Of a stretch of DNA of 16,873 bases, positions 1,947-15,212 are shown piece after piece (within the stretch, counting starts at the first letter, position 1; every line of letters begins with the position of its first letter). A program made the translations under genes and the position numbers. The DNA is from Chloroflexota bacterium (GTDB taxonomy: Bacteria; Chloroflexota; Dehalococcoidia; UBA2979): the NCBI GenBank assembly GCA_947446155.1, contig CANFFZ010000043.1, positions 1-16,873 on the forward strand, given 5' to 3'. Below the pieces are notes generated by a model that was not told the DNA's origin, did no database searches, and saw only the letters and a list, made by a program, of their open reading frames with translations.

Positions 1947-1952
1947 GTGCCG

Positions 1953-1981
1953 AAGGTACTCACCTGTTGATTATTTGGCAA
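1953..1981 (-). promoter_or_regulatory. Probable promoter of the padR-mod operon, leaderless geometry
   Basis: On the minus strand a -35 TTGCCA (1981-1976), a 17-base spacer and a -10 TACCTT (1958-1953, fitting TANNNT) end only six bases before ATG 1946. A transcript starting the usual distance after this -10 would begin at or next to the ATG, and there is no Shine-Dalgarno. This is the leaderless arrangement common in Actinomycetota and some other phyla. The surrounding 1965-2000 stretch is clearly more AT-rich than the rest of the window and could also hold the PadR operator; it has TATTT repeated at 1972-1976 and about 1987-1991. Confidence 0.45.
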
Positions 1982-2083
1982 GAAAGTATTTCACGCGAGA
2001 ATGAGACGGCGCCCTCGAGCGGAAGGGCGGAGGACAGCGTCAGGCGCTGGCTCGTGACCCCCGGAGCCTCGCACATCGAGGGG

Positions 2084-2089
2084 TATCAT
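2084..2089 (+). promoter_or_regulatory. Possible -10 box upstream of the fused CoA transferase
   Basis: TATCAT matches five of six bases of the TATAAT consensus and lies 52 bases before the preferred start at 2142. No convincing -35 is seen 16-18 bases upstream. A small inverted repeat (CCTCG, five-base loop, CGAGG, 2067-2081) lies just before it and could be an operator. Weak evidence. Confidence 0.25.
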
Positions 2090-2128
2090 CCGCCCGCAGC
2101 CGAGGGGCCCTGCTGACAGGGTGGCTGC

Positions 2129-2134
2129 GGAGGG
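2129..2134 (+). promoter_or_regulatory. Shine-Dalgarno GGAGGG that fixes the start at ATG 2142
   Basis: GGAGGG is followed by seven bases and then ATG 2142. An in-frame GTG at 2121 would add seven residues (MAAEGRA) with no homology value and would place this ribosome-binding site inside the gene, so ATG 2142 is preferred. Confidence 0.7.
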
Positions 2135-2141
2135 CCGAGCA

Positions 2142-4583
2142 ATGCTCGAAGACGTGCGCGTGGTGGATCTCTCGCGAGAGCCGGGCGCCACCTACGCAGC
2201 GCGCCTGTTCGCGCTGCTGGGCGCCGACGTCGTTAAGGTCGAGCCGCCCGATGGCGACCCGGCCCGGCGGCGCGGCCCTCGGCGCGGCGACGACGGCGAG
2301 ACGAGCGCGCTGTATGCCTACCTGAACGCGGCGAAACGATCGGCCGTCCTCGACCCGAGCGACGAGGCGCAGCGCGCGACGCTCCTCCGCCTGATCGAGC
2401 GCGCCGACGTGGTATTCGAGGACGGCGCGCCAGGGTGGTGGAAGGCGCAGGGCATCGACCTCGACGCGCTCGTGGAGACACACCAACGGCTCGTGGTGGT
2501 CTCGGTCACGCCGTTCGGGCAGGACGGGCCGCGCGCGGGGTGGCGAGCGACGGCGCTGACGGCGCACGCGTCCGGCGGGCAGTTAATGCTGTGTGGCGAG
2601 ACCGACCTGCCGCCGCTGAAGGTCGTGGGCCAGCAGGCGTACTACCAGGCCGGGCTGCACGCGTTCTCCTCCGCACTCACCGCGATGTACGCAGTGCGCC
2701 GAGACGGCCTCGGCGACCGCATCGACCTCTCGATCCAGGAAGTGCAGAACGCCAGCCTCGAAGGCGCAGGGCCGGGCGCGATGGTGCGCGGGTTCGACCT
2801 CGAACGGGTGGGGAACCAGGCGCGCGCGGTGTGGGGGATCTACCCGTGCGCAGACGGCTACGTCGGTGTGGCCTCGATGGCGCGGCAGACAGGGTCGGTC
2901 TACCGCTGCATCGAGCACCCCGAACTCGCCGAGGACCCGCGGTTCGCCGACCTCATCGGCAATCCGGAGATGAACGAGATCGCCACGCTGCTGATCAACG
3001 AGTGGACGATGGCCCGAGGCGCGCACGAGATCTTCGAGGAGTCCCAGCGGCACCGCGCGCCCTTCTCACTGATCCCGACACCGCGCGACCTGCTGAAGTG
3101 GGCACCGCTGGAACAGGCGAAGTTCTGGACTGAGGTCACCCACCCACGTCTCGGGAAGCACGCGCTGCCGGGCGCGCCGTTCACGCTCAACGGCGAACGT
3201 GCGCGCGCCTCGGGCCCCGCGCCACTCCTCGGCCAGCACACCGCCGAGGTGGTGGCGGAGGCCGCTGAGCCGGGTGCGCCCGTCCGCGCCGCCACAGGCA
3301 GTCGCGCGCGACTGCCGTTCGAGGGGCTGCGCGTGCTCGATCTATCGCAGGTGTGGGCAGGGCCGTACGCCGCTCGCTTCCTCGCGGACATGGGGGCGGA
3401 CGTCATCCACATCGAGGGGCCGCAGTTCCCGGATGCGGTGCGCGGCGTCGGACGCGGAGATGACCCGCGGGCATTCAACAAGGCTGCCTACTTCAACGAG
3501 TACAACCGCAACAAGCGCGGGCTAGCGCTCGACCTGCACCAGCCGGAGGGCATGGAGGCGTTCAAGCGCCTCGTCCCACTCGCGGATGTGGTGCTGGAAA
3601 ACTGGAGCGTGGGCGTCGCGGAACGCCTCGGCATGGGGTACGAGGACCTGCGAGCGCTGAACCCTCGGATCTCACTCGTGCAGATACCAGGCTTCTCGAA
3701 GGAACTACCGGAGTCGGAACGCGTCGGCTTCGGCCCCACCATCGAGCAGATGGGCGGGCTCGTTGCGCTGCAGGGCTACGAGGGCGGGCCACCGCACAAG
3801 AGCGGAATCTCGTACGGTGATCCCATCGGCGGGATCATCGCGGCGGGTGCCACGGCGCTTGCGCTATGGCGTCGCGAGAGCGGCGCCGGCGAGGGCTGTC
3901 ACATCGTCGTCTCGCAGCGCGACAATGTGATCGGGATGGTGGGGGAGTTCATGGTGGCCGAGTCGCTGGGCCTCGACTATCCCGTACGCGAGGGCAACCG
4001 CGACCGGGACGCTGCACCGCACAACGTCTACCGCACCCGCGACGACGAGGGCCGCTGGCTGGTCGATGTCTCGTTCAAGCGCGTGTCGGAGTACCACGAC
4101 ACCTGGGTCGCGATCGCCGTGGACTCGGACGAGGCGTGGCAGGCGCTTCGAGGTGTGGTGCGAGATGTGCGCCTCGATCTCCCGGCGTACGCGACGCTGG
4201 ATGGACGAAAGGCCGGCGAGGCCGCGATCGATGCGGTGCTCGGCGAGTGGGTGCGAGACCGTGATGGGACCGAGGTAGCCGAGGCGCTGCAGGCGGTTGG
4301 TGTCGCCTCGAGCCCGGTGCTATCGGCGCTGATGCTGGTGTCCGACCCACACATGGTGGCACGCGCGAACTTCCCGACGACGGTCCACCCCGAGGCGGGT
4401 GAAGTGCTGACGTCTCGCCCCGTGTGGCGGATGAAGCGCCGGCCCACGCCTCGACCGAACGCGGGGCCGACGTTCGGCCAGCACAACCGTGAGGTGATGC
4501 GCGACCTCGCGGGGTACTCGGACGCCAAGGTGGACGCGTTCGAGGCGAGCGGGCTGCTCGCGACCGTGCCGACGCGCGCATGA
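2142..4583 (+). CDS. Double-domain class III (CaiB/BaiF/Frc) CoA transferase, N-terminal half lacking the catalytic Asp
   Basis: Cytosolic family III CoA transferase: it moves CoA between acids through an aspartyl-CoA thioester. At 813 aa it is twice the usual 380-420. Half 1 (about residues 1-365) starts MLEDVRVVDLSREPGATYAA and has the GADVVKVEPPDGDPARR and QDGPRAGWRA motifs. A linker (about 366-390) follows. Half 2 (391-813) starts LPFEGLRVLDLSQVWAGPYA and has GADVIHIEGP, YNRNKRGLALDLHQPEG, ADVVLENW and NPRISLVQIPGF. Half 2 keeps the catalytic Asp in SYGDPIGGIIAAG (Asp560, codon 3819-3821). The aligned position in half 1, VVGQQAYYQAGLHAF, is Gln164 (codon 2631-2633), so half 1 is probably structural or substrate-binding. 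Class III enzymes are interlocked dimers, so the fusion may form one active site per chain. Substrate unknown. Its stop overlaps the cobO start. Confidence 0.9.
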   Translation: MLEDVRVVDLSREPGATYAARLFALLGADVVKVEPPDGDPARRRGPRRGDDGETSALYAYLNAAKRSAVLDPSDEAQRATLLRLIERADVVFEDGAPGWWKAQGIDLDALVETHQRLVVVSVTPFGQDGPRAGWRATALTAHASGGQLMLCGETDLPPLKVVGQQAYYQAGLHAFSSALTAMYAVRRDGLGDRIDLSIQEVQNASLEGAGPGAMVRGFDLERVGNQARAVWGIYPCADGYVGVASMARQTGSVYRCIEHPELAEDPRFADLIGNPEMNEIATLLINEWTMARGAHEIFEESQRHRAPFSLIPTPRDLLKWAPLEQAKFWTEVTHPRLGKHALPGAPFTLNGERARASGPAPLLGQHTAEVVAEAAEPGAPVRAATGSRARLPFEGLRVLDLSQVWAGPYAARFLADMGADVIHIEGPQFPDAVRGVGRGDDPRAFNKAAYFNEYNRNKRGLALDLHQPEGMEAFKRLVPLADVVLENWSVGVAERLGMGYEDLRALNPRISLVQIPGFSKELPESERVGFGPTIEQMGGLVALQGYEGGPPHKSGISYGDPIGGIIAAGATALALWRRESGAGEGCHIVVSQRDNVIGMVGEFMVAESLGLDYPVREGNRDRDAAPHNVYRTRDDEGRWLVDVSFKRVSEYHDTWVAIAVDSDEAWQALRGVVRDVRLDLPAYATLDGRKAGEAAIDAVLGEWVRDRDGTEVAEALQAVGVASSPVLSALMLVSDPHMVARANFPTTVHPEAGEVLTSRPVWRMKRRPTPRPNAGPTFGQHNREVMRDLAGYSDAKVDAFEASGLLATVPTRA

Positions 4584-5179
4584 CATCTGAGACGCCTCGG
4601 GAGCAGACGCCCGAGGAAGCCGAGGAGTACCGCCGTTCACTGCGGAAGGAGAACCGAAAGAAGGGTCTCCTGATCGTGAACACGGGCACTGGCAAGGGGA
4701 AGACAACGGCGGCATTCGGCCTCGCGATGCGCGCGCGCGGTCGAGGGATGCGCGTCGCGATGATCCAGTTCATCAAGCCCGGCACGGCCAACTTCGGCGA
4801 GATCCGCGCGGCGCGCGAACTCGGCATCGAAGTGCAGGGCATGGGCGACGGGTGGACGTGGCGCAGCAAGGACCTCGACGAGTCGGCGGAACTCGCGCGG
4901 GTCGGTTGGGCGCGCGCGCAGGAGGTGATCGCCGCCGGCGAGCACGACCTGGTGGTCCTCGATGAGTTCACCTACCCGATGCACTACGGCTGGCTGGACA
5001 CCACGGAAGTGCTCGCGTGGATCGCCGCGAACAAGCCCTTGATGCTCCACCTGGCGATCACCGGCCGGTACGCTCCGGACGCGCTGATCGAGGCGGCCGA
5101 CCTGGTGACGGAGATGCGGCTGATCAAGCACCCATTCAAGGAACAGGGCATCCGCGCCCAGCCCGGCATCGAGTTCTAG
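4580..5179 (+). CDS. cobO: Cob(I)yrinic acid a,c-diamide adenosyltransferase (CobO/BtuR type)
   Basis: Transfers the 5'-deoxyadenosyl group of ATP to Co(I) of corrinoids, giving adenosylcobalamin precursors; cytosolic. The 199-aa length is typical of CobO/BtuR/CobA. Visible signatures: P-loop GTGKGKTT (36-43), AMIQFIKPG (60-68), the GDGWTWRSKD segment (89-98), LVVLDEFTYPMHYGWLD (124-140, Walker-B-like), AITGRYAPDALIEAADLVTE (159-178) and the C-terminal KHPFKEQGIRAQPGIEF. The ATG overlaps the preceding CoA transferase stop as ATGA and no Shine-Dalgarno is visible ahead of it, so it should be translated by coupling. Its only visible partner is the fused CoA transferase; no other cobalamin gene lies nearby. 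This suggests supply of adenosylcobalamin to a B12-dependent mutase acting on CoA esters elsewhere, which is inference. Confidence 0.95.
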   Translation: MTSETPREQTPEEAEEYRRSLRKENRKKGLLIVNTGTGKGKTTAAFGLAMRARGRGMRVAMIQFIKPGTANFGEIRAARELGIEVQGMGDGWTWRSKDLDESAELARVGWARAQEVIAAGEHDLVVLDEFTYPMHYGWLDTTEVLAWIAANKPLMLHLAITGRYAPDALIEAADLVTEMRLIKHPFKEQGIRAQPGIEF

Positions 5180-5196
5180 CCGGCCTTCGCTCTCGG

Positions 5197-5385
5197 TTAG
5201 CCCTCGCGGACGCCGGGGGCCTCCGGGCCCGTCGCGGCGAAGCCAGCAGCGATAAGCCCGTCGATCTTCGTCTGGTCGACGCCAGCCTTGCGCAGGAAGT
5301 CGACCGTGTCGGCGCCGGGCTTCGGCGCGCCGCGCTCGGCGCCGCCGGGGGTGCGCGAGAGTTTCACCGGGGTGTTGGCATCTCC
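5197..5385 (-). pseudogene. 3' remnant of a class III CoA transferase
   Basis: Reading the minus strand in the frame ending at TAA 5199-5197 gives about 61 codons: DANTPVKLSRTPGGAERG, then APKPGADTVDFLRKAGVDQT and KIDGLIAAGFAATGPEAPG. This is the family III C-terminus, where an xxPVKLSRTPG segment is followed by APxxGxxTxxxLxxAGxxxxxIxxLxxxG. There is no start codon and no upstream domain: at about 5385 the sequence switches, in a different frame, to an enoyl-CoA hydratase. Intact members are about 400 aa, so roughly 85 percent of the gene is gone. The 656 bases between cobO and the next gene contain only this remnant, its partner and promoter-like sequence. Confidence 0.75.
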
Positions 5386-5597
5386 TTCAGGTCGCCGCCG
5401 GCGCAGAACGCCTTCTGGCCGGTGCCCGTGAGCACGATGGCCCGCACCTCCGAATCCGCCTCGGCTCGATTCATCGCCTCGGCGAGTTGGAGGCGGAGGA
5501 GGTACGAGAGGACGTGGTAGCGGTCTGGCTGGTTCAGGCTGATGAGCGTGACCGGGCCGTGGCGCTCTTCGAGGACGAACTGCGGGGTGTCAGTCAT
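5364..5597 (-). pseudogene. 5' remnant of an enoyl-CoA hydratase/isomerase (crotonase family)
   Basis: From ATG 5597 the minus strand encodes MTDTPQFVLEERHGPVTLIS, a segment beginning LNQPDRY, then VRAIVLTGTGQKAFCAGGDL-KE. These are the crotonase N-terminal strand, the NxP region and the oxyanion-hole motif AFCAGGDLKE (residues 63-72). The frame then hits TGA at 5366-5364 after 77 residues, against about 260 in intact family members, so the second oxyanion glycine and the active-site acid regions are missing. The homology break coincides with the start of the CoA transferase remnant, which indicates a deletion joining two neighbouring genes rather than a point mutation. A promoter-like -35/-10 remains upstream, so a truncated product might still be made. 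Confidence 0.8.
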
Positions 5598-5665
5598 TCG
5601 CGCTGTCTTTCGGGTGGGCCGGCCTCGAAACCGATTGGCACCGAGGCGGGACGACGTGTCCCCGG

Positions 5666-5695
5666 TGTCTACTCCGACGCCGTTCGAGGTGTCAA
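5666..5695 (-). promoter_or_regulatory. Promoter-like -35/-10 upstream of the crotonase remnant
   Basis: On the minus strand a perfect -35 TTGACA (5695-5690), an 18-base spacer and TAGACA (5671-5666). It leaves a leader of about 60 bases to ATG 5597. It abuts the palindrome at 5697-5710, so a repressor there would cover the -35. Confidence 0.4.
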
Positions 5696-5696
5696 C

Positions 5697-5720
5697 GGCA
5701 ACCGGTTGCCTCGGCCGAGG
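5697..5720 (+). promoter_or_regulatory. Two overlapping perfect palindromes, candidate repressor operator
   Basis: GGCAACCGGTTGCC (5697-5710) and CCTCGGCCGAGG (5709-5720) are both perfect inverted repeats sharing two bases. They sit between the minus-strand promoter of the crotonase remnant and the plus-strand promoter of the CoA transferase operon. AACCGGTT cores occur in operators of LacI/GalR-type repressors, and TetR-type sites are also palindromic. No such regulator gene is in the window, so the binder is unknown. Confidence 0.4.
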
Positions 5721-5760
5721 AAGCCGCCGTCCCGTACTAGAGTCGACCTGCTGCACGCGA

Positions 5761-5789
5761 TTGCGAGGGGTTGCGGGCGGGCGTAGTGT
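5761..5789 (+). promoter_or_regulatory. Candidate promoter of the scoA-scoB-SDR-SDR operon
   Basis: TTGCGA (5761-5766, four of six), a 17-base spacer and TAGTGT (5784-5789, fits TANNNT). A transcript from here would have a leader of about 40 bases carrying AGGAG before the CTG start at 5836. Confidence 0.35.
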
Positions 5790-5823
5790 CCGGCGCGCTC
5801 TCGATTCCCCAGCCGTCGAGGGC

Positions 5824-5838
5824 AGGAGCCACCGCCTG
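5824..5838 (+). promoter_or_regulatory. Shine-Dalgarno AGGAG seven bases before a CTG start codon
   Basis: AGGAG (5824-5828) is followed by seven bases and CTG 5836-5838. Translation from this CTG begins (M)INKVVATFDEAVADMQDG, matching the usual N-terminus of class I CoA transferase A subunits. The next in-frame alternative, GTG 5848, has a 19-base gap to the same site and would cut off INK. No in-frame ATG exists between 5545 and the conserved domain. Confidence 0.55.
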
Positions 5839-6597
5839 ATCAACAAAGTGGTCGCCACGTTCGACGAGGCCGTCGCTGACATGCAGGACGGCGCCACGAT
5901 CCACTTCGGCGGGTTCGCATCGCCGTTCAACACCCCGTCCTACCTCGTGGCTGCTGTCGCGCGACGCGGCGTGACCGGGCTGACGGCGATCTCGACCTCG
6001 ATGGGCCGAGGGGTGAAGCACCGCGACTCGCAGTCGCCGTGGTTGCCGCCCGAATTGCGCCCGCTCGACTTCTTCGACGTGGCACTCATGGCCGAACTCG
6101 GGCAGCTGAAGAAGGGGATCACCACCTTCGCCGTCGGCGCGCGCCACGACCTCATCTACCCGTTCGAGGAGCGGCTGACCGAGGGCAGCGTGGAGGTCGA
6201 GGTGCTCGGCCAGGGCTCGCTCGCCGAGCGGATCCGATGCGCGCGTGCGGGGATCGCCGCCTTCTACACGCCGGTCGGGCCGGGGACGGACGTGGCGAAC
6301 GGCAAAGAAGTCCGCGACTTCGACGGCGTACCGCACGTCCTCGAAACCGCGCTCCACGCTGACTTTGCGCTGATCCGGGCGTGGAAGGCGGACCGCTACG
6401 GCAACCTGATCTTCCGAGGGCCTCGGTCGTTCAACGAGACGATGGCGGGCGCCGCGCGGATCACCATCGCGGAGGTGGACGAGGTGGTGCCGCTGGGCGA
6501 TCTGAAGCCCGAGCAGATCCATACCGCCGGTATCTATGTGCAGCGCGTCGTCGTTCGGCCCGCGGCGCCGGTCACCTCCTGGGAGGTGCCACAGTGA
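5836..6597 (+). CDS. scoA: Class I (3-oxoacid type) CoA transferase, subunit A
   Basis: Alpha subunit of a heteromeric family I CoA transferase (ScoA/AtoD/PcaI type), which with subunit B transfers CoA from an acyl-CoA such as succinyl-CoA or acetyl-CoA to a 3-oxo or other acid. From the probable CTG start it is 253 aa. Visible signatures: INKVVATFDEAVADMQDGAT at the N-terminus, IHFGGFASPFNTPSYLV (glycine-rich CoA-binding turn), GQGSLAERIRCARAGIAAFY, TPVGPGTDVANGKEVRDFDG, LETALHADFALIRAWKADR, YGNLIFRG and ITIAEVDEVVPLGDLKPEQI followed by HTAGIYVQRVV. All are standard for the AtoD/ScoA branch rather than the cholesterol IpdA branch. The stop overlaps the subunit B start as GTGA. The natural acid is not deducible; scoA is used as a family label. 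Confidence 0.9.
   Translation: MINKVVATFDEAVADMQDGATIHFGGFASPFNTPSYLVAAVARRGVTGLTAISTSMGRGVKHRDSQSPWLPPELRPLDFFDVALMAELGQLKKGITTFAVGARHDLIYPFEERLTEGSVEVEVLGQGSLAERIRCARAGIAAFYTPVGPGTDVANGKEVRDFDGVPHVLETALHADFALIRAWKADRYGNLIFRGPRSFNETMAGAARITIAEVDEVVPLGDLKPEQIHTAGIYVQRVVVRPAAPVTSWEVPQ
6573..6588 (+). promoter_or_regulatory. Hairpin that can mask the Shine-Dalgarno of subunit B
   Basis: CACCTCC (6573-6579) and GGAGGTG (6582-6588) are exact inverted repeats; allowing a four-base loop gives a six-pair stem CACCTC/GAGGTG. The right arm contains the GGGAGG ribosome-binding site (6581-6586) of the GTG start at 6594. A ribosome finishing subunit A would melt it, so the structure could enforce coupled, equimolar A and B synthesis. 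Confidence 0.45.
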
Positions 6598-7289
6598 GCG
6601 CCGGCGAGCCCGAGCGGCTGCATCCGACGGTCATGGCGATGATCGTGACGCGAGACTTCCAGGACGGCTTCGCCGTCAACCTCGGCGTGGGATTGCCCCT
6701 CGAGTGCGCGAACGCGATGCCGGCCGGGCGGGAGATCCTGCTGCACTCCGAGTTGGGGCTGCTCGGCTTCGGCCCGGTCATCAGCGACCACACGAAGGCC
6801 GACCCCTACGTGACGATGGTGGGGAATCTGCCGGTCGAGGCGCTCCCCGGGATGGTCTTCCTGAGCCACGACGAGTCGTTCGCGATGATCCGCGGCAAGC
6901 ACCTAGACGTCTGCGTCCTCGGGGGTCTCCAGGTGGATGTGGAGGGGAACCTCGCGAACACGCAGTTCGAGGGGAAGCCAGCCGGGAACCTCGGTGGCGC
7001 CCCAGATCTCGCCTACGGGGCGAAGCGGACGGTGGTGATGATGCACCACACCACGCACGACGGGACGCCGAAGGTTGTGACGCGCTGCACATTGCCGCTC
7101 ACGGCACCTCGATGCGTGTCCCGCCTCGTGACGGACGTGGGGGTGTTCGACATTGCGGATGGGCGCATCGTTCTCCGGGAGGTTGCGCCAGGGTGGGACC
7201 CGGAACGAATCCAGCGGATCACCGAGGCGCCCCTCGAAATCGCGGCAGACGTACACGAAGTCACCCTCATAGAGACCGCCCTGATGTAG
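6594..7289 (+). CDS. scoB: Class I (3-oxoacid type) CoA transferase, subunit B (catalytic Glu subunit)
   Basis: Beta subunit carrying the glutamate that forms the glutamyl-CoA thioester. With the GTG start at 6594 (GGGAGG seven bases upstream, GTGA overlap with subunit A) it is 231 aa, a normal length. Signatures: MIVTRDFQDGFAVNLGVGLP, then ILLHSELGLLGFGPV, where Glu53 (codon 6750-6752) occupies the SExG catalytic position (usually SENG), then FLSHDESFAMIRGKHLDVCV, LGGLQVDVEGNLANT, GGAPDLAYGAKRTVVMMHHT, TRCTLPLTAPRCVSRLVTDV and GVFDIADGRIVLREVAPG. A longer open frame beginning at an ATG at 6381 is rejected because its first 71 residues lie over subunit A in another frame. It forms a heteromer with scoA and is transcribed ahead of the two SDR genes. 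Confidence 0.92.
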   Translation: MSAGEPERLHPTVMAMIVTRDFQDGFAVNLGVGLPLECANAMPAGREILLHSELGLLGFGPVISDHTKADPYVTMVGNLPVEALPGMVFLSHDESFAMIRGKHLDVCVLGGLQVDVEGNLANTQFEGKPAGNLGGAPDLAYGAKRTVVMMHHTTHDGTPKVVTRCTLPLTAPRCVSRLVTDVGVFDIADGRIVLREVAPGWDPERIQRITEAPLEIAADVHEVTLIETALM

Positions 7290-7297
7290 GGTGCGGA

Positions 7298-7315
7298 CGC
7301 CGGCCGGCTCCGGCG
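7298..7315 (+). other. GC-rich stem-loop between scoB and the first SDR gene
   Basis: CGCCGG (7298-7303), six-base loop, CCGGCG (7310-7315). There is no U-run, so it is not a canonical terminator; it could attenuate or mark an mRNA-processing boundary inside the operon. Confidence 0.3.
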
Positions 7316-7345
7316 AGGCAACGAAGATGGACAGAGAGGCACAGC

Positions 7346-8248
7346 ATGGGTCACCTGGACGGAAAAGTGGCGATCATCACCGGCGGCGCCGGGGGCATCG
7401 GCACTCAGATCAGCAAAATGTTCGCCGAGCAGGGCGCGAGCGTAATCGTCGCGGACACCGGCGCGGACGTTGAAGGCCGCATGGGCGTCGACCCCAGCCG
7501 CGTGAACGCGGTGGTGGACGACATCAAGGCGAAGGGCGGCACTGCGATCGCGGCGGTGGGCGACATCGCCGAGATGGACGTGGCCGAGGGCCTCGTACGC
7601 ACGGCGCTCGACACCTTCGGGAAACTCGACATCCTGGTGTCTGCGCACGGCATCTTGCGCGAGCGGATGATCTTCAACATGACCGAGGACGACTGGGACG
7701 GCGTCGTGCGGTCGCACCTCAAAGGGTGCTTCACCATGGCGAAGTTCGCCTCCATCCACTGGCGCCAGACGCGCGCTGGCGGCCGCATCATCTTCTTCAC
7801 CTCTGGCGCAGGCGTACGAGGCAGCGCAGGCCAGCCGAACTACGCCGCCGCGCAGGCTGGCAAGATCGGCCTGATGCTCTCGTGCGCGAACGCCCTCGGG
7901 CGGTACGGGGTAACGGCGAACTGCATCTCGCCCAGCGCATCGACGCGCATGACAGACCGCTTCCGCGAGGAGAACCAGGCGATCCAGAGCGGTTCGAGCG
8001 AGGGCACCGACCGCGACCCGAAGAACATCGTGCCGCCGATCGTCTACCTGGCGTCGGACGCCGGTGCTGACGTGACGGGCCGCGTGGTGCAGGTCCAGGG
8101 CCACCGGATCGCGATCTGGCGGGAGATGTACGCCGAGAAGACGATCTACTCGCGCACACCGGTCTGGGACATCGACACGTTGTTCGAGGTCATGCCGGAG
8201 ACGCTGGCCGCGGAGCCGGACGTACTCATGCCGCCCCGTCGCGGGTAG
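7346..8248 (+). CDS. MFE-2-like short-chain dehydrogenase, catalytic Lys replaced by Gln (paralog 1)
   Basis: SDR-fold protein, 300 aa, cytosolic. The N-terminus GKVAIITGGAGGIGTQISKM has the TGxxxGIG dinucleotide loop (12-19). The long ADTGADVEGRMGVDPSRVN insert after strand 2 and the RMIFNMTEDDWDGVVRSHLKG region resemble the (3R)-hydroxyacyl-CoA dehydrogenase domain of multifunctional enzyme 2. Ser153 and Tyr166 of the catalytic centre are present. The Lys four residues after Tyr is Gln170 (NYAAAQAGK, codon 7853-7855), and the NNAG motif reads VSAHG (98-102). The C-terminus has a tail of about 45 residues beyond the usual end and lacks the DGG close (VQVQGHRIAIW). ATG 7346 follows AGAGG by six bases. 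Dehydrogenase activity is doubtful without Lys. It is a tandem paralog of 8307-9227. Confidence 0.88.
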   Translation: MGHLDGKVAIITGGAGGIGTQISKMFAEQGASVIVADTGADVEGRMGVDPSRVNAVVDDIKAKGGTAIAAVGDIAEMDVAEGLVRTALDTFGKLDILVSAHGILRERMIFNMTEDDWDGVVRSHLKGCFTMAKFASIHWRQTRAGGRIIFFTSGAGVRGSAGQPNYAAAQAGKIGLMLSCANALGRYGVTANCISPSASTRMTDRFREENQAIQSGSSEGTDRDPKNIVPPIVYLASDAGADVTGRVVQVQGHRIAIWREMYAEKTIYSRTPVWDIDTLFEVMPETLAAEPDVLMPPRRG

Positions 8249-8270
8249 GCAGCGGTTCAGGTCACATCCT

Positions 8271-8284
8271 CCCGCCGCGGCGGG
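8271..8284 (+). other. Perfect 14-base palindrome between the two SDR genes
   Basis: CCCGCCGCGGCGGG is a perfect inverted repeat in the 58-base gap, nine bases ahead of the GAGGAG ribosome-binding site (8293-8298) of the second SDR. It has no U-run. It could be a repressor site or a weak hairpin that sets relative expression of the paralogs. Confidence 0.35.
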
Positions 8285-8306
8285 ATCAGTACGAGGAGTA
8301 ACTGGC

Positions 8307-9227
8307 ATGGCCCAGCATCTGACAGGCAAGGTCGCAGTGATCACCGGCGGCGCCGGTGGTATTGGGACGCAGATTTCGAAGGTCTTCGCGGAGCAGGGGG
8401 CGAAGGTCATCGTCGCCGACACCGGCGCGGACGTGGAAGGCCGCATGGGCGTCGACCCGACGCGCGTGAACGCGGTCGTCGATGACATCCGCAAGGCCGG
8501 TGGGGAGGCCGTCTCCGCCATTGGTGACGTGTCCGAAATGGATGTCGCCGAGGGCATCGTCCGGCAGGCGATCGACACGTACGGGAAACTGGACATCGTC
8601 GTCGCGGCTCACGGCATCCTGCGCGAGCGGATGATCTTCAACATGACCGAGGACGACTGGGACGGCGTCGTCAAGGCGCACCTCAAGGGGTGCTTCGCGA
8701 TGACGAAGTTCGCCTCGATCCACTGGCGCGCGGAGCGCAACGGTGGGCGGATGATCTACTTCACCTCCACGGCCGGCATCTTCGGCTCAGCCGGACAGCC
8801 GAACTACGCCGCCGCGCACATGGGCAAGATTGGCCTCATGCGCTCGACGGCGCAGGCACTCGGCCGCTACGGCGTGACGACGAACTGCATCGCCCCGGGC
8901 GCCAGCACTCGCATGACGGACCGAGGCCGCAACGCGGTTGAGAACGCCAGCGCGAGCGCGGAGGGCACCTCGCGTGACCCGAAGGCGGTCGTGCCGGTGA
9001 TCGTGTACCTGGCCTCTGACCAGGGCGCGAACATCAACGGCCGCGTCTTTGGCGCGTCCGGCCACAAGATCACCCTCTACAAGGAGCCGACCCTGGAGCG
9101 CGTCATCTTCAACGATGAGCCGCTCTTCAACGTCGACGAGTTGTTCGAGGAGTGGCCGAACAGCCTCGGCGTCGGCGGTTACGAGATGGAGCGGCAGCCT
9201 GGCCAGCCGGTTCAGCCAACTCAGTAG
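8307..9227 (+). CDS. MFE-2-like short-chain dehydrogenase, catalytic Lys replaced by His (paralog 2)
   Basis: 306-aa paralog of the preceding gene, co-linear over nearly the whole length apart from the last 20 residues. It has the TGxxxGIG loop (13-20), the same GADVEGRMGVDPTRVN insert, AAHG (100-103) where SDRs have NNAG, the AHLKG segment, Ser154 and Tyr167. At the Lys position it has His171 (NYAAAHMGK, codon 8817-8819). That two diverged paralogs both lack this Lys but keep Ser and Tyr argues for selected altered chemistry rather than decay. The start ATG 8307 has GAGGAG eight bases upstream. It is the last gene of the operon, followed by the strong hairpin at 9253. Candidate roles are a 3-hydroxyacyl-CoA-handling enzyme with weakened redox function, or a partner forming a heteromer with paralog 1. 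Confidence 0.88.
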   Translation: MAQHLTGKVAVITGGAGGIGTQISKVFAEQGAKVIVADTGADVEGRMGVDPTRVNAVVDDIRKAGGEAVSAIGDVSEMDVAEGIVRQAIDTYGKLDIVVAAHGILRERMIFNMTEDDWDGVVKAHLKGCFAMTKFASIHWRAERNGGRMIYFTSTAGIFGSAGQPNYAAAHMGKIGLMRSTAQALGRYGVTTNCIAPGASTRMTDRGRNAVENASASAEGTSRDPKAVVPVIVYLASDQGANINGRVFGASGHKITLYKEPTLERVIFNDEPLFNVDELFEEWPNSLGVGGYEMERQPGQPVQPTQ

Positions 9228-9252
9228 CACACGCACGGCCTCAGTAGTCGTC

Positions 9253-9279
9253 AAGAGGCGGGCCTTTGGCCCGCCTCTT
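9253..9279 (+). terminator. Strong 12-bp hairpin ending the CoA transferase-SDR operon
   Basis: AAGAGGCGGGCC (9253-9264), loop TTT, GGCCCGCCTCTT (9268-9279): twelve perfect pairs with a three-base loop, 25 bases after the stop of the second SDR. The 3' side ends CTCTT then CCG, so the U-run is minimal, as often seen in GC-rich genomes. Confidence 0.75.
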
Positions 9280-9426
9280 CCGATCCGCCGGGGTGACAAC
9301 GAGAGGTCGTGAACGCTCGGGGGAGGCCTCCGGGAATCTAGCCGCCGAGGCGTCAGGTTCGCCCGGAACAACTGCCGCACCGCCAGCGTTCCACTCACAA
9401 CGGGAGTCATCACGCCGGAGGATCAC

Positions 9427-10403
9427 ATGTTCGGTCAGCTCATCCGCCAGATTCAATCCCGCGTTGGATGGCCGGTGGCGCTCGCTGTCACTGTCACCGT
9501 CCTCGCCTTCGGCATCGCCACAGCGTTCGTCGCGCAGCGCTCGGACGAGACATCGACGATCGGCATCGCGACCTCCGGCGGTAGCGCGGGCGACATGGCG
9601 GGCGGCCTCGTCGCGCCCGAGGAGCGGATGAAGGCAGGAACCACTGCCGCCGCCCCGGCGCCCGGCCAGTCGGCGAACGGCTTAGACGGCGGCACGGGCA
9701 CCTCGATCCCCGCACTCGAAGCCGGTCGCGACGTGGTGCGTACCGGCTCCGTCGACATCGAGGTGCGCTCGGTGACCGAGTCGTTCGAGCAGGTGCGCAC
9801 GATTGCGACCGGCGCCGGCGGCTTCGTCGCCGACTCGATGTTCGTGGGTGGTGGGGGCGACCACTCAGCGCGGCTGACGCTGCGCGTCCCGGCCGACCGC
9901 TTCGGCGAGGTGGTGACTCAGCTGCGAGGGTTGGCCACGGACGTCCGCTCGATCTCGAGCAACTCGCGCGATGTGACCGGTGAGACCAACGACCTCGAAG
10001 CGACGCTCAAGAACCTCCGGGCCGTCGAAGCGCAATACGCGACGCTGCTCGGCCGGTCAGGGAGCATCGGCAACATCCTGCAGGTGCAAGAGCGCCTGAA
10101 CCAGGTGCGGCTGCAGATCGACCGCACAGAGGCTCGACGCGCGCTTATCTAATCCCAGACAGAGATGTCGACCCTGAGCGTGGCGCTGTTGCCGGAAGGC
10201 ACCGGCGTAAGCGGTACGGGGCCGCGCGCCGCCGCTTTCGAGGCGTGGGAAGCCTCCCTCGAGACCCTGGAGAACATCGCGACGGCAGCGATCGTGGTGG
10301 CGGTCTACTCCTGGTGGATCGTGCCGCTGATCGTGCGGGGGTGGTGGTCCTGCGCCGCCGCACCAACCGCCGACCCGCGATCGAGGCGCCACCGGCGGCC
10401 TAG
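9427..10403 (+). pseudogene. DUF4349-type membrane protein gene with an in-frame TAA and a probable frameshift
   Basis: The first 241 codons encode an N-terminal membrane segment (about 14-36), an Ala/Gly/Pro-rich spacer and a DUF4349 domain: VRTGSVDIEVRSVTESFEQV, GGFVADSMFVGGGG, LTLRVPADRFGEVVTQL and the coiled-coil region ATLKNLRAVEAQYATLLG, IGNILQVQERLNQVRLQ. The frame stops at TAA 10150-10152 after EARRALI, yet the very next codons in the same frame continue the domain (SQTEMSTLSVALLPEG) and then the C-terminal membrane helix (IATAAIVVAVYSWWIVPLIV). At the G5 run 10337-10341 a second shift is likely: the alternative frame gives the expected basic tail VVLRRRTNRRPAIEAPPAA and TAG 10401-10403 just before a hairpin. 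Either a decaying gene or two sequence errors. GGAGG lies five bases before ATG 9427. Function of DUF4349 unknown. Confidence 0.75.
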
Positions 10404-10424
10404 CCCTCGCTCGACAGTTCACAC

Positions 10425-10452
10425 CGAGGCGGGTCCTAACAGGCCCGCCTCG
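10425..10452 (+). terminator. Hairpin downstream of the DUF4349 gene
   Basis: CGAGGCGGG (10425-10433) and CCCGCCTCG (10444-10452) pair perfectly; CCT/AGG can extend the stem across a bulged T. The stem shares the GAGGCGGG/CCCGCCTC core with the hairpin at 9253-9279. No U-run follows. Its place 22 bases after TAG 10401-10403 supports that codon as the original end of the DUF4349 gene. Confidence 0.6.
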
Positions 10453-10523
10453 TACGTTGCCCGAAAGGAAGTGGGCGGTAAACTCGCGCCACCTCGCAGA
10501 TTCCGGCGAGCCTCTGATGCATC

Positions 10524-10543
10524 GAGGAAGGTTGACCCGAGTG
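10524..10543 (+). promoter_or_regulatory. Shine-Dalgarno GAGGAAGG that favours GTG 10541
   Basis: GAGGAAGG (10524-10531) lies nine bases before GTG 10541. Upstream in-frame candidates (TTG 10457, ATG 10517) lack a ribosome-binding site, and TTG 10457 sits five bases after the preceding hairpin, so GTG 10541 is the likelier start. Confidence 0.5.
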
Positions 10544-11875
10544 GGCGACGATCCCCCGCAGTCCGGCCTTCGCCGCTCCGTCGATCGCACCATCCGGCCG
10601 CAGGGTCGGGTGTTCTACGGTTGGTGGATGGTCGCTGCCGGCGCCGGGGCACAGGCCGTCATCGGCGTGCTCTTCAACCAGGCGTTCAGCACGTACGCGG
10701 CTGTCCTCAGGAGCGAGTTTGGCTGGAGCCGGAGCGAGCTCTCCGCCGCCTTCGCGATGGCGCGTGTGGAGAGCGGCCTGCTCGGCCCGGTCGAGGGGTG
10801 GCTGCTCGACCGCTTCGGCCCGCGGCGGGTGATGGTCCTCGGGATCATTCTGCTGGGGACGGGGCTGATCGCCTTCTCGTTCATCAACTCATTGCTGTTC
10901 TTCTACCTGTCGTACTTCCTCATGGCGATCGGGGCGACGCTCGGCGGCTTCCTCGCGATCACGGTCGGCCTCGTCAGTTGGTTCAACCGCCACCGCGCGA
11001 AGTCACTCGCGATCACCCAGATGGGGTTCGCCACCGGCGGCCTGATGATCCCGATCACGGTGGCCGCCATCGAGCAGTTCGGGTGGCGTCCGACGGCGTT
11101 CGTCTCCGGCTTCATTATCTGGGGCCTCGGCATCCCGCTCGCGATGATGATGCGGCACCGACCGGAGATGTACGGCGAGACACCGGACGGCCTTCCCATC
11201 ACCGCTGCCAACGACGCCGGCGGTGGCGGGCACCACTCACGCCACGCGGTGGCGATGGACGGTTCCGAGGACTTCACGGCGCGTCAGGCGGTCCGGACAT
11301 CTGGCTTCTGGTTGATCTCACTCGGACACGCCTCGGCGCTGCTCGTCGTGTCGGCTGTGATGGTGCATGTGGTGCTCCACCTGACGGAGGGGCTGAGGTA
11401 CACGCTCGGCGGAGCGAGCCGGGTGATCGCGCTGATGACGGGGATGCAGATCGTGGGACAGATCAGCGGCGGCTTCCTCGGTGACCGCTTCGACAAGCGC
11501 ATCCTCGCCACCGGGTGCATGGTGCTGCACGCCGTCGCACTGGTGCTCCTCGCTTTCGCGACAAACGTCGCGATGGTGATCGCGTTCGCGATGCTGCACG
11601 GCCTCGCATGGGGCACCCGAGGCCCGCTGATGCAGGCGATCCGCGCCGACTACTTTGGCACGTCGAACTTCGGCAAGATCATGGGGCTTTCGTCGATGAT
11701 CGTGACGATCGGGAACACGACCGGACCGCTGCTCGCCGGAGTCGTCGCAGACAAGACGGGGAACTACGAGGTCGGCTTCACGATTCTCGCCGTGGGGGCG
11801 CTCCTCGGATCACTGTTCTTCGTGGCTGCCCGAAAGCCGACACCGCCGCAGCGGGCGACCGTCGAGGCCATCTAA
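10541..11875 (+). CDS. MFS transporter, OFA/monocarboxylate-like
   Basis: Cytoplasmic-membrane secondary transporter of the major facilitator superfamily, 444 aa from GTG 10541, with about twelve hydrophobic segments. After a short basic N-terminus comes VFYGWWMVAAGAGAQAV (helix 1), then FGWSRSELSAAFAMARVESG and GPVEGWLLDRFGPRRVMVLG, with the loop 2-3 motif DRFGPRR (90-96). A hydrophilic central loop, rich in Gly and His, separates two six-helix halves. The GWW start and FGWSRSE segment resemble oxalate:formate antiporter and monocarboxylate carriers, so a small organic acid is a reasonable guess and would suit the CoA transferases nearby. The substrate is inference. The gene faces the response regulator gene with four bases between their stops, so no separate terminator fits. 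Confidence 0.85.
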   Translation: MGDDPPQSGLRRSVDRTIRPQGRVFYGWWMVAAGAGAQAVIGVLFNQAFSTYAAVLRSEFGWSRSELSAAFAMARVESGLLGPVEGWLLDRFGPRRVMVLGIILLGTGLIAFSFINSLLFFYLSYFLMAIGATLGGFLAITVGLVSWFNRHRAKSLAITQMGFATGGLMIPITVAAIEQFGWRPTAFVSGFIIWGLGIPLAMMMRHRPEMYGETPDGLPITAANDAGGGGHHSRHAVAMDGSEDFTARQAVRTSGFWLISLGHASALLVVSAVMVHVVLHLTEGLRYTLGGASRVIALMTGMQIVGQISGGFLGDRFDKRILATGCMVLHAVALVLLAFATNVAMVIAFAMLHGLAWGTRGPLMQAIRADYFGTSNFGKIMGLSSMIVTIGNTTGPLLAGVVADKTGNYEVGFTILAVGALLGSLFFVAARKPTPPQRATVEAI

Positions 11876-11879
11876 CGGC

Positions 11880-12602
11880 CTAGCGGATCACGTAGCCTGC
11901 GCCTCGGATCGTTGCGATGAGACCGGACGCACCCGCCCGGTCGAGTTTCGCGCGTAGTCGGGAGATCTGTGCCTGGACGAAGTTCGGCGAGCCGTACGTC
12001 TCGTAGTGCCAGACCTGGCGGGAGATCGTGTCAGCGCTCAGCACCTCGCTCCGGTGGTCGAGAAGCAGGCGCAGCACGAAGAACTCGGTCGCGGTGAGAT
12101 TGAGCGCGGCTCCCCGGATGGTGACCTCATGCGCGGCACGCTTCATCACTAGGCCGTACGGCTCTCCGACGTGATGCGTCTCCTCGCCTGGCCGCGCCCG
12201 GCGCAGCAGGGCTGCCACTCGCGAGGCAAGTTCGGCAGGCTCGATATCGCCAGAGACGACATCGTCCGCACCAAGGTCGAAGCCGCGGTCGAGGATCTCG
12301 GGGCCGCCGCGGGTGATGACGATGACCGGGACGTTGCCGAGCCGGCGTGTCTCGGACAGGACGGTCATGCCGAACACGTCCGGCAACCGCTCACCCAGGA
12401 CGACGAGGTCGAACGAGGAACGCCGAAGCAATTCGATCGCGCCTCGGCCTGAGCCGACGCTGACGAACTCGGCACCCTCACATCGCATCGATTCGCGGAG
12501 CGCGGACCAGTAACGGTCAGGGGCGCCCGCGAGGAGCACGAGGGCCCCCGCAAACCGCGCGACGGCCGACGGCACAGGATGCGTAGACAGCTCAAGAATC
12601 AT
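11880..12602 (-). CDS. OmpR/PhoB-family response regulator with a degenerate receiver domain
   Basis: 240 aa. Residues about 18-135 have the shape of a receiver domain: SSFDLVVLGERLPDVFGM, VPVIVITRG and LGADDVVSGDIEPAELASRV. The phosphorylation chemistry is gone: the acceptor Asp position is Gly70, the N-terminal acidic pair is absent (LVLLAGAPDR), and the KP pair after GADD is replaced by SGD (Gly118). Only the switch Thr97 remains. Residues about 148-240 are an intact winged helix with the transactivation and recognition features LTATEFFVLRLLLDHRSEVL, DTISRQVWHY, FVQAQISRLRAKL and the wing TIRGAGYVIR. It likely binds DNA without a histidine kinase, and none is nearby. ATG 12602 has AGGAAG upstream. 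It follows the 140-aa unknown gene on the same strand after 101 bases. Confidence 0.88.
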   Translation of the reverse strand: MILELSTHPVPSAVARFAGALVLLAGAPDRYWSALRESMRCEGAEFVSVGSGRGAIELLRRSSFDLVVLGERLPDVFGMTVLSETRRLGNVPVIVITRGGPEILDRGFDLGADDVVSGDIEPAELASRVAALLRRARPGEETHHVGEPYGLVMKRAAHEVTIRGAALNLTATEFFVLRLLLDHRSEVLSADTISRQVWHYETYGSPNFVQAQISRLRAKLDRAGASGLIATIRGAGYVIR

Positions 12603-12695
12603 CGCGGACTACTTCCTCGTCGCAGGATGGATGGACAGAACCTCGGCGGCCGGGGTGCGTAGGCGGTACACACCCCGGCCGTTCGAGGCGGGAGC

Positions 12696-12715
12696 GTGCT
12701 CGCCTAGACGAGCAC
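12696..12715 (-). terminator. Stem-loop over the end of the unknown 140-aa gene
   Basis: GTGCTCG (12696-12702) and CGAGCAC (12709-12715) pair around a six-base loop that contains the stop codon of the minus-strand gene. No U-run follows in the minus direction. It might reduce read-through into the response regulator gene; weak evidence. Confidence 0.25.
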
Positions 12716-13126
12716 CTCGGCCTGACGGTGGGGCTGATACCACTGTGCCTTGCGACCAGCGACGTGGGCCACACCCAACGTGACGCAGTCGGCGGTCACG
12801 TCCAGCATGAACCGCACCTGGCGACGACGCGCGAAGGTCAACGGGCCCTCTGGCGCGACAGACTCGAAGGCAAAGGTCTTCCCGCCGGCCTCAGCCAGCG
12901 CGAACGCCATCACGATCTGCGCACCCATGATGGACGGCAGCTCGCGGAATTCATCGCGCAATTCAACCGCCGTGCCCTCGTCCAGGTACGAGGCGAGCAA
13001 TTCGCACACCTCGGCACCTTCGACGGGCCGCGTGGCCAACTCCAACATCTTCAGACGGAGGTCAGACTCCGCGCCAAGAACCCTCGTAACCTCAGCCGTA
13101 ATCTGACGACACTGCGGAAAACTCAT
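12704..13126 (-). CDS. Protein of unknown function, 140 aa
   Basis: I do not recognise a family. From ATG 13126 (GGAAAGGG six bases upstream; a TTG at 13129 is also in frame) it encodes a soluble protein beginning MSFPQCRQITAEVTRVLGAE. The first half is helical and acidic (LRLKMLELATRPVEGAEVCE, LLASYLDEGTAVELRDEF). The second half reads like alternating strands (GKTFAFESVAPEGPLTFA, VRFMLDVTADCVTLGVAHVA) and ends in a basic tail, QWYQPHRQAEVLV. No signal peptide, membrane segment or cofactor motif is seen. Codon use is that of a real GC-rich gene, and it has a ribosome-binding site. It lies between a divergent regulator (13210) and the response regulator on its own strand, so it may be a small partner or sensor for one of them. 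That is inference only. Confidence 0.65.
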   Translation of the reverse strand: MSFPQCRQITAEVTRVLGAESDLRLKMLELATRPVEGAEVCELLASYLDEGTAVELRDEFRELPSIMGAQIVMAFALAEAGGKTFAFESVAPEGPLTFARRRQVRFMLDVTADCVTLGVAHVAGRKAQWYQPHRQAEVLV

Positions 13127-13209
13127 CAAGCACCCTTTCCTGCACTACGAGTCATAGAGTTCGCACAAATCACCGGGATCGGCCACGTTGCTTAGGTACT
13201 TGACTACGT
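13127..13209. promoter_or_regulatory. Divergent intergenic region between the unknown gene and the LuxR-type gene
   Basis: 83 bases, more AT-rich than its surroundings, must hold the starts of both divergent transcripts. No -35/-10 pair with good spacing stands out in either direction. The LuxR-type ATG at 13210 has no Shine-Dalgarno, so a leaderless start is possible. A TACGTA palindrome (13205-13210) overlaps that start. Confidence 0.3.
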
Positions 13210-15087
13210 ATGGTTGACGAACGTGATGACGCCGTGAGGGTCGCCTGGCGCTTGTTGAAGGAACACGCCACTGAACTCCCTGATTCTGGACATCCGTCTA
13301 CTGAAGCGCCCTGGAATCTTCGTTTCGGCACGGCGCGTACCGGGGTAGGCCTCGCGATCTTCGCCGCAGCGTCCCTTGAGTCGCAGGGGAAACCCGGTAT
13401 GGCCGTAACACACCTGAATGACGCCATCGCTGTGTTCTCATCGGATCGTGCGGCGCGGGCTCAACTCCTTGCCGGACGCGCACTAATCGAGTCGCTTAAC
13501 GGGACTCCCGATGCGTCCGAAAGTCTCCAACAAGCCCGCCGGGGTGTCCGATCCTTTGAGCCAGAAATAGTCTTCGAGCTGGATGTCTACACCGCGATTG
13601 TCGGGGTCATCCAACTTCGGCCGGGTAGCATTGAGCAGGCGGAGCGGAATCAGGCAACGGCCGAGCGCCTCTCCGGGTTCGGCATGTCAGCAGGAATGAA
13701 GCCGTGGACCATCACGGCGATGCATGCATTCGGAATGGCTGAACGCTCGGCGATCTGGATCACGTCACTCGCGGCCTTTTCCGAAGCGGCCAAAGACACC
13801 TTCCGCCGAGCCGACGTTGCCGCGCTCGATTACTCGACGCAAGCACGATCTTCGCTGATCGAGCCTGACGGGGACGCGCTGGCTACCGCGCCGCTCAACA
13901 CCAGCGCGATGGCGGGTCGAGGTGACTCGGCTCTGCTCAGGCGCGACCGCGAGGCCGCGAAGGCCTCAATCGCGGCGCTACAGAGCCTCGACGAGCGGAT
14001 GAACCCGATCTGGCGGGCGGGCATCCCGTGCTACGAGGCGGCGCGCGAGGCGTGGTTCGAGGATGGCACCGACGCGGTGTTCCCCTCTCCGCCTGAGTCG
14101 GTGTCAGCGATCACGTTGCCGGCAGGCCTCGCGGGTTTGAACGCATCGAGTCAGGCGGGGAGCCAGGACGAGGCGGTGCTGTGGCGACGGTGGGCGGACG
14201 CGAGCCTGCCGGCGCACATCCAGTCATCGCTCGGCTGGCCCGTCTCGATCGACCGGCTGATGGGGTTGAGCGACATCCGGCTGGGGCGGGTGGAGCGCGC
14301 ACGTCAGCGCTTCCAGCGAGCGGCGCGCTGGGCGGAGGCCGGCGGCTACACCATCGGGCGTGCGATCGCCCTCCTACAGCTCGCCGAACTGGCGACGCTC
14401 GCGGGGCTCCAGCCGACGCGTGATCGCTGGCAGATCCTGCGGCGGCGCGGTCGTGACGAGTTGAGCGCGCTGGGCCTCGACCCCGACCCGCTCGCGTACC
14501 AGGTCGCGCGGGCGCTCGCGCTCGGTCGCACCTCGGACTTCTCGCCGAAGTTGACGCCACGTGAGGTGGAAGTGCTGTCGCTGTTGGCCCGCGGGCTCAC
14601 ACACCGCGAGGTGGGGGCCAGCCTCGGGATCTCGTGGCGCACGGCGCAGGTCCACGCAGCGAGCGCCTACGGAAAGCTCGACGCCTCGACGCGCATTGGC
14701 GCGATCACACGGGCGCGGGAACTCGGACTGCTCGGGTCGCCCCGAGGTCAGCCGCCAGCGATCTTCACGCGGTGGCCAAGGGCGGTCAGTTTCGCCTCGA
14801 TCTTCTCGCGGTGGTCGCCCTGGATCTCGAGGGTGGTACCCTCGCGCGTACCGCCGGCGCCACAGTGCTGCTTCAGCACCTTCAGCAGCGCCTCCAGGTC
14901 GCGTTCGTTACCGGGCAGTCCGGCGACGATCGTGACCGTCTTACCGCCTCGGCCCTTCGTCTCGCGCAGCAAGCGGACGAAGCCGTCAGCAGGGAGCGGT
15001 GGCCGAGCCGCGGGACTCGCCGCCGGGCGGGGTGCGCGCGAGGGCTTCGCAGTGACGCGACCGGCCTCGGAACCGTCGGTGGAGTAG
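13210..15087 (+). CDS. LuxR-family regulator with helical-repeat N-terminus; frame runs antisense through yciH
   Basis: The open frame encodes 625 aa. Residues about 40-420 are helix-rich with TPR-like pairs (LQQARRG, RARQRFQRAARWAEAGGY, AIALLQLAELATLAGLQPTR), as in the C-terminal part of MalT/LAL regulators. The LuxR helix-turn-helix is at 447-508: KLTPREVEVLSLLARGL, THREVGASLGISWRTAQVHA, YGKLDASTRIGAITRA. No P-loop ATPase is present, so it is a short form of the LAL type. Homology should end near residue 512, GLLGSPRG. The last 112 residues are the antisense of yciH and are low-complexity, rich in Ser, Arg and Pro, so the true functional C-terminus is probably about 14745 even though no stop occurs there. 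The first 670 bases look less GC-rich than the rest. The start lacks a Shine-Dalgarno. Confidence 0.8.
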   Translation: MVDERDDAVRVAWRLLKEHATELPDSGHPSTEAPWNLRFGTARTGVGLAIFAAASLESQGKPGMAVTHLNDAIAVFSSDRAARAQLLAGRALIESLNGTPDASESLQQARRGVRSFEPEIVFELDVYTAIVGVIQLRPGSIEQAERNQATAERLSGFGMSAGMKPWTITAMHAFGMAERSAIWITSLAAFSEAAKDTFRRADVAALDYSTQARSSLIEPDGDALATAPLNTSAMAGRGDSALLRRDREAAKASIAALQSLDERMNPIWRAGIPCYEAAREAWFEDGTDAVFPSPPESVSAITLPAGLAGLNASSQAGSQDEAVLWRRWADASLPAHIQSSLGWPVSIDRLMGLSDIRLGRVERARQRFQRAARWAEAGGYTIGRAIALLQLAELATLAGLQPTRDRWQILRRRGRDELSALGLDPDPLAYQVARALALGRTSDFSPKLTPREVEVLSLLARGLTHREVGASLGISWRTAQVHAASAYGKLDASTRIGAITRARELGLLGSPRGQPPAIFTRWPRAVSFASIFSRWSPWISRVVPSRVPPAPQCCFSTFSSASRSRSLPGSPATIVTVLPPRPFVSRSKRTKPSAGSGGRAAGLAAGRGAREGFAVTRPASEPSVE

Positions 15088-15113
15088 ACGAGGCGGGAGT
15101 TGGGGTCAGGCAC
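14748..15113 (-). CDS. yciH: YciH, SUI1/eIF1-like translation factor
   Basis: 121-aa bacterial homologue of eukaryotic eIF1, thought to influence start-codon fidelity. The N-terminus VPDPNSRLVYSTDG matches the (M)SDxNSRLVYST opening of E. coli YciH. The SUI1 domain is complete: DGFVRLLRETKGRGGKTVTI, VAGLPGNERDLEALLKVLKQ, HCGAGGTREGTTLEIQGDHR and the end KLTALGHRVKIAGG. An Ala/Pro/Arg-rich stretch (about 17-42) separates the two. The start is GTG 15113 with AGGAGGG five to six bases upstream. All but its first 26 bases lie antisense inside the open frame of the LuxR-type gene, so the two transcripts would be complementary over about 340 bases. YciH is the conserved member and is certainly the real gene of the pair here. 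Confidence 0.94.
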   Translation of the reverse strand: MPDPNSRLVYSTDGSEAGRVTAKPSRAPRPAASPAARPPLPADGFVRLLRETKGRGGKTVTIVAGLPGNERDLEALLKVLKQHCGAGGTREGTTLEIQGDHREKIEAKLTALGHRVKIAGG

Positions 15114-15177
15114 GCGGCACCCTCCTGCGGCACAATCGTAGCGGGCGAATCACTCGAAGCTCGACGGCGTCATTCCC

Positions 15178-15186
15178 TGCTATTGT
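15178..15186 (+). promoter_or_regulatory. Extended -10 promoter candidate for the monooxygenase
   Basis: TGCTATTGT forms an extended -10 (TGN plus TATTGT) about 27 bases before GTG 15213. A TCGACG at 15161-15166 is too close for a standard -35, but extended -10 promoters tolerate this. The divergent yciH promoter must share the 99-base gap; a TACGAT on the minus strand at 15141-15136 is a possible -10 for it. Confidence 0.35.
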
Positions 15187-15212
15187 CCGGCGATTCGAGT
15201 TCGGAGTGCCAC

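Follow-up and report, generated by a model that had tools for sequence, protein, structure and literature searches.

SDRs are among the largest enzyme superfamilies, and the lysine of their YxxxK motif, which binds the nicotinamide ribose and reduces the pKa of the catalytic tyrosine, serves for their recognition and annotation. Classical members combine a Rossmann SDR fold with TGxxxGxG, NNAG (NxAG in a subgroup) and YxxxK motifs, and are canonically spaced with 13 residues from the active-site Ser to the Tyr, 17 from the Ser to the Lys, and 17 from the residue at Tyr+4 to the Tyr of a downstream YGV motif. In complex SDRs and ketoreductase domains the motif reads YxxxN and the lysine is supplied from helix alphaE. 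FabL (3oic), with Ser141-Tyr151 and Ser141-Lys158 spacings of 10 and 17, uses the Lys of a Y-x6-K motif to hold the nicotinamide ribose, according to PMC9260719. BbsCD, the (alpha-hydroxybenzyl)succinyl-CoA dehydrogenase of anaerobic toluene degradation, is one enzyme made of two SDR subunits, and its pathway begins with a CaiB-type two-part CoA-transferase (BbsEF); it is reported to hold inactive pseudoenzyme subunits (title cited in PMC10818641).

The window, by which we mean the whole stretch of DNA analysed, is 16,873 nt long (contig CANFFZ010000043.1 of GCA_947446155.1, positions 1-16,873, forward strand) and encodes two SDRs in tandem on the + strand, the upstream paralog SDR 1 (P0001, 300 aa; 7346..8248; PF00106 at 1.9e-36) and the downstream paralog SDR 2 (P0002, 306 aa; 8307..9227; PF00106 at 5.4e-35). 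Both have the Rossmann SDR fold and a TGxxxGxG motif, in the form TGGAGGIG, with Ser and Tyr in place (S153 and Y166, codon 7841..7843, in SDR 1; S154 and Y167, codon 8805..8807, in SDR 2), and both lack NNAG/NxAG and YxxxK. The lysine of YxxxK is replaced by Gln170 in SDR 1 (7853..7855; QK type) and by His171 in SDR 2 (8817..8819; HK type), and in both proteins a lysine occurs three residues further on, at Tyr+7 (K173, 7862..7864; K174, 8826..8828). The NNAG site reads SAHG in SDR 1 (residues 99-102), where His101 (7646..7648) stands for the Ala of NxAG, and AAHG in SDR 2 (residues 100-103; His102, 8610..8612). In all of these points, reading frames and TGxxxGIG loop included, a first-pass annotation made from the same DNA was accurate. 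Where MFE-2 / 17beta-HSD4 and ChsB1 carry YxxxK and NxAG, the present pair thus has Yxxx[QH]xxK and, across its group, [ACS]A[HQ]G, which we refer to as the switched motif.

Counted manually, the Tyr lies 13 residues and the Lys 20 residues after the Ser in both SDRs, and the Tyr of the downstream YGV motif follows the Gln/His at a distance of 17. Because the Ser-Tyr and YGV spacings are canonical, a hidden indel that would restore the lysine to its usual frame is ruled out, and the lysine sits at Tyr+7. FabI and FabL share Tyr-x6-Lys with the pair (Y166/K173 and Y167/K174), but FabL reaches this spacing by a moved Tyr (10 and 17 residues from the Ser), whereas here the Lys has moved (13 and 20). 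We therefore regard the pair as a variant of MFE-2-like SDRs that lies outside the divergent group.

An AlphaFold model of SDR 2 (mean pLDDT 87.5) was compared with solved chains, and the nearest relatives by both sequence and structure are MFE-2, ChsB1 and 3qlj, so the assignment to MFE-2-like SDRs, already made in the first pass, holds. The C-terminal tail, which had been called non-standard, turned out to be in line with the group: NCBIfam NF005861 (300 positions) aligns with residues 1-288 of SDR 1, under its cut-off at 260.9 vs 373 bits, and the solved relatives are of similar length (7lg9, ChsB1, 317 aa; 3qlj, 322 aa).

The switch is a trait of a clade. In a first protein set (n = 122) made up of the two window SDRs and the best 120 of 4800 homologue hits, His or Gln at Tyr+4 (position 171 in SDR 2) and Lys at Tyr+7 (position 174) are found in 122/122, with His in 84 and Gln in 38; AHG replaces NAG in all of them, as [C/A/S]AHG at positions 100-103, and TGxxxGxG, Asp38, Ser154 and Tyr167 are likewise each present in 122/122. 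The canonical sister group, sampled as the best 120 of 8000 for one query, has the switched motif in 0/120 and NVAG together with K171 in 120/120, position 174 being Ile in 119 and Val in one; K171 without K174 was also found in all 26 SDRs from 20 hand-picked regions (43-57% identity). Across all fetched loci, where switched sequences were defined by His/Gln at +4 plus Lys at +7 and matches covering <220 residues were dropped, we recovered 81 non-redundant switched sequences, 76 with AHG and five with AQG. The 76 other sequences from these loci carry Lys at 171 in 72 cases, Ser in three and Ala in one, and none has K174. The two exchanges are thus coupled, and among the locus rows neither the His/Gln at +4 nor the Lys at +7 occurs singly.

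In order to place the switch, a tree of a thinned set of 105 rows was built by a quick method from an alignment with the motif columns removed, with SH-aLRT as its only support measure. A single branch with support 100 separates the 59 switched rows, so that proteins with Gln or His in this column form a clade, a point the earlier annotation had put forward for checking, and the switch has a single origin. Within it the genes split by position into an upstream and a downstream set, each of 28 rows and each with support 98, SDR 1 and SDR 2 belonging to the respective sets; exceptions are both copies of locus L109, which fall in the downstream set, and the triple array of locus L114, which lies outside both. 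One branch of switched rows that contains two paralog clades implies, most simply, that the lysine was lost once, before the duplication, and that both copies would then have been co-retained. Of the shared loss in diverged paralogs described previously, the part that stands is thus that the loss is common to both; a pair of separate losses gives way to one ancestral change. In L114 the three switched SDR genes are arranged in tandem (157-3581).

Tandem occurrence, which the first pass had also named as a point to check, is close to universal in the genomes examined. In a class sample of 294 genomes (class and phylum assigned by record title), counted from the matches listed at ≥60% identity, 38 genomes contain a match and 37 of these have adjacent copies; the one exception is G234, whose match is a fragment cut off by the beginning of its contig. 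Among the matches listed, the second copy in the 37 paired genomes is at least 58% identical, and one genome (G115) carries three. The switched motif is present in every copy fetched from all 38 genomes, the NAG site of G234 lying outside its fragment. In a phylum sample, matches at E 1e-100 or better occur in 4/400 genomes, all four of them within the class sample. The fetched loci with switched genes, some of which overlap, hold two copies in 64/65 cases and three in one, and the 64 two-copy loci (again with some overlap) comprise 25 H-H, 24 Q-H and 15 Q-Q pairs. Distances within the upstream and downstream sets correlate at 0.91 (17 pairs), as expected from co-inheritance. Two adjacent paralogous SDR genes, long co-retained, are what would be expected of a BbsCD-like system.

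Conservation was compared in 54 paired rows from loci other than L109 and L114, 28 of them from the upstream and 26 from the downstream set. All 54 share TGxxxGxG, Ser, Tyr and K174, as well as Asp38, which we take as a sign of preference for NAD over NADP. Position 171 swaps between His and Gln at least six times on the tree and position 102 at least twice, which makes an essential acid or base role improbable for either; among the new residues of the switch, K174 alone is both charged and invariant. The positions that distinguish the paralogs are 155, which adjoins the catalytic Ser, 179, and ten within 231-283, none of them catalytic or in the NAD motif. Position 179, which lies further along the same helix as K174, is Leu in 28/28 of one set and Arg in 26/26 of the other. 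Purifying selection is evident from comparison with L001 (contig CAMBFG010000001.1), pieces of which are 91.6-94.1% identical to the window: the 29 codon differences, 24 in SDR 1 and five in SDR 2, are without exception synonymous.

Upstream of the pair, the window encodes a fused double CaiB/BaiF (class III) CoA-transferase (2121..4583, +) whose N-terminal half best matches 9fn0_A and whose C-terminal half best matches 9fn0_B, the chains labelled as the two subunits of benzylsuccinate CoA-transferase. The GD motif, the Asp of which is presumably catalytic, is present in the C-half and absent from the N-half; the fused halves differ in this motif, while the switched SDR paralogs keep the same residues. 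A cob(I)yrinic acid a,c-diamide adenosyltransferase (4580..5179, +; TIGR00708, 191.1 bits, over the cut-off) lies between the CoA-transferase genes, and the subunits A (5857..6597, +) and B (6594..7289, +) of a 3-oxoacid CoA-transferase, both with approximate starts, follow. The steroid ring hydrolase IpdAB was considered for these two genes and rejected: the scores of subunit A against SCOT-type chains reach 147 bits, vs 25 for 6co6, labelled 'Probable CoA-transferase alpha subunit' and which we take to be IpdA, and those matched by subunit B are of acetate/SCOT type, with no 6co6-like chain among the matches listed. A short enoyl-CoA hydratase fragment is found at 5364-5627 on the - strand, and at the equivalent place L001 has ~1.6 kb extra, where the hydratase frame is longer and another CaiB gene is present. 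The L001 contig also carries a second switched pair ~11 kb on. It is preceded by two separate CaiB genes and by a flavoprotein similar to a Baeyer-Villiger-type synthase (164 bits, a score far short of the cut-off of that model).

Neighbours were surveyed at 25 loci, with one representative per cluster scanned; since related genomes share synteny, the following counts are not independent. CaiB genes were recognised at six loci, hydratases at six, acyl-CoA dehydrogenases at seven, thiolases at four, luciferase-like monooxygenases at nine, and at five an HpaB-type monooxygenase accompanied by a glyoxalase/dioxygenase-type gene. One locus, L099, holds a near-complete gene set: besides two CaiB genes and CoA-transferase A and B it encodes acyl-CoA dehydrogenases, a thiolase whose partner is a ChsH2-type zinc-ribbon/OB protein, and two hydratases. 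No SDRs were found there besides the switched pair. Because the neighbours vary by locus, the context does not fix the substrate and we claim no single one. A FadB-type dehydrogenase (PF02737) is encoded elsewhere in 10/10 genomes over the cut-off (strongly in nine, weakly in G153), which speaks against a pathway-hole argument. At L110, L111, L112, L113 and L115 (for L115, representatives were scanned) the vicinity of the switched pair includes an HpaB-type monooxygenase and a member of the glyoxalase/dioxygenase superfamily, a hint that the substrates there may be aromatic compounds or steroid rings.

Taken with the near-universal pairing, the fixed new lysine points to a functional enzyme of two parts whose active site has been rearranged, and away from a pair of dead proteins. 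The reading we prefer, to which we assign a probability of about 0.5, is that the two genes encode an obligately heteromeric NAD(H)-dependent 3-hydroxyacyl-CoA dehydrogenase of MFE-2/ChsB1 type with a relocated lysine, which would occupy the slot that BbsCD fills. The two proteins would be subunits of one SDR and would act at the 3-hydroxyacyl-CoA dehydrogenase step in a module that degrades CoA esters of the benzylsuccinate type, a putative substrate class. With Tyr and Ser unmoved, NAD(H) would still be bound; the Gln or His at the old lysine place may hydrogen-bond the ribose, and positive charge would come from the lysine one helix turn on, together with the new His/Gln in the former NNAG loop. 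K174 would then aid ribose binding and electrostatics from further along the helix. The pair would resemble BbsCD in being two SDR subunits of one enzyme alongside a CaiB-type two-part CoA-transferase; its sequences are closer to MFE-2 types than to BbsD. We found no characterised member of the switched clade.

Calculations on an ideal helix, which take in neither packing nor cofactor, count against this relocated-lysine dehydrogenase. With Tyr chi1 at 180 the amine of a lysine at Tyr+7 stays at least 5.2 Å from the Tyr hydroxyl, whereas one at +4 can reach 1.4 Å; the Tyr+7 amine approaches some canonical Tyr+4 amine positions to 0.7 Å, with a median closest distance of 4.7 Å. With chi1 at -65 neither lysine comes near the Tyr. 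This poor reach would fit an active dehydrogenase in which Gln/His does the whole job and the Tyr+7 lysine is structural, for example in an interface salt bridge within the heteromer's alphaE/alphaF bundle. An interface role would be natural for genes that come in pairs, and position 179, on the same helix, separates the paralogs. Against it, K+7, H/Q+4 and H/Q102 arise together on one branch, which suits one remodelled site; Gln supplies no charge, and His and Gln swap repeatedly at the position that would have to do the work. We consider a purely structural lysine unlikely on this balance.

Rather improbable, in our view, is a non-redox enzyme or NAD-binding pseudoenzyme pair (a lyase, hydrolase or scaffold) that has lost hydride transfer. 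The usually 'essential' lysine is indeed absent in 122/122 of the set formed by the window SDRs and the best 120 of 4800, and there is precedent for SDRs without a catalytic residue in the halohydrin dehalogenases, SDRs in which one has been lost. A Tyr-to-Leu SDR is also described, in PMC11614110. However, the NAD motif, Ser and Tyr are invariant throughout that same set and in both paralogs, and comparison with L001 reveals zero nonsynonymous changes. Nor does either copy display one-sided decay of the BbsC kind: BbsCD is reported to have inactive subunits, whereas the switched paralogs both keep the same residue set, and the pattern of one dead and one intact subunit is not found. The invariant motifs in both paralogs and the synonymous-only changes speak against dead proteins, and decay into pseudoenzymes was accordingly rejected as the leading reading. 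The altered chemistry or pseudoenzyme pair suggested in the first pass is thereby borne out in part, a displaced lysine being favoured and a dead pair disfavoured.

An enoyl-CoA reductase of FabL/FabI type is very improbable, since its Tyr-x6-Lys, although formally identical, belongs to a divergent SDR frame in which the Tyr has moved, with a Ser-Lys distance of 17 against 20 here, and the best solved relatives of the pair are MFE-2-type dehydrogenases.

Ketoreductases resemble the switched pair in that the lysine is gone from YxxxK and supplied elsewhere, but they carry it at the Asn site of alphaE, where the switched pair has His in 53/54 paired rows. In the open-licence PMC literature we found no SDR clade with Gln/His for the lysine and a Lys at Tyr+7, an absence that weighs little because subscription papers are mostly outside that collection. 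We tentatively propose, at somewhat less than even odds, that the clade represents a third natural solution to the placement of the SDR lysine, next to the displaced Tyr of FabI/FabL and the Lys/Asn exchange of ketoreductases. In this proposal the lysine moved to Tyr+7, the Gln/His and the NNAG-loop His would compensate, and both subunits of an obligately two-subunit dehydrogenase, found across CoA-ester pathways of Dehalococcoidia, would be active. As the lysine was exchanged on one branch and a close canonical sister exists, its role can be tested by residue swaps in both directions. In a proposal on recalcitrant organic matter (PMC5395668), Dehalococcoidia/SAR202 SDRs are taken as ordinary alcohol dehydrogenases; SDRs so annotated may include members of unproven chemistry.

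Other SDR arrays were observed among the fetched loci. A different tandem pair occurs at L042 (6537-8457), L043 (6274-8235) and L045 (6467-8428), in which one protein has YAAASxxQ, lacking Lys at both +4 and +7, and its partner has YxxxK, so that the pair looks active/inactive. At L091 (4510-8577), in one class genome, four canonical (YxxxK) SDR paralogs are encoded in tandem.
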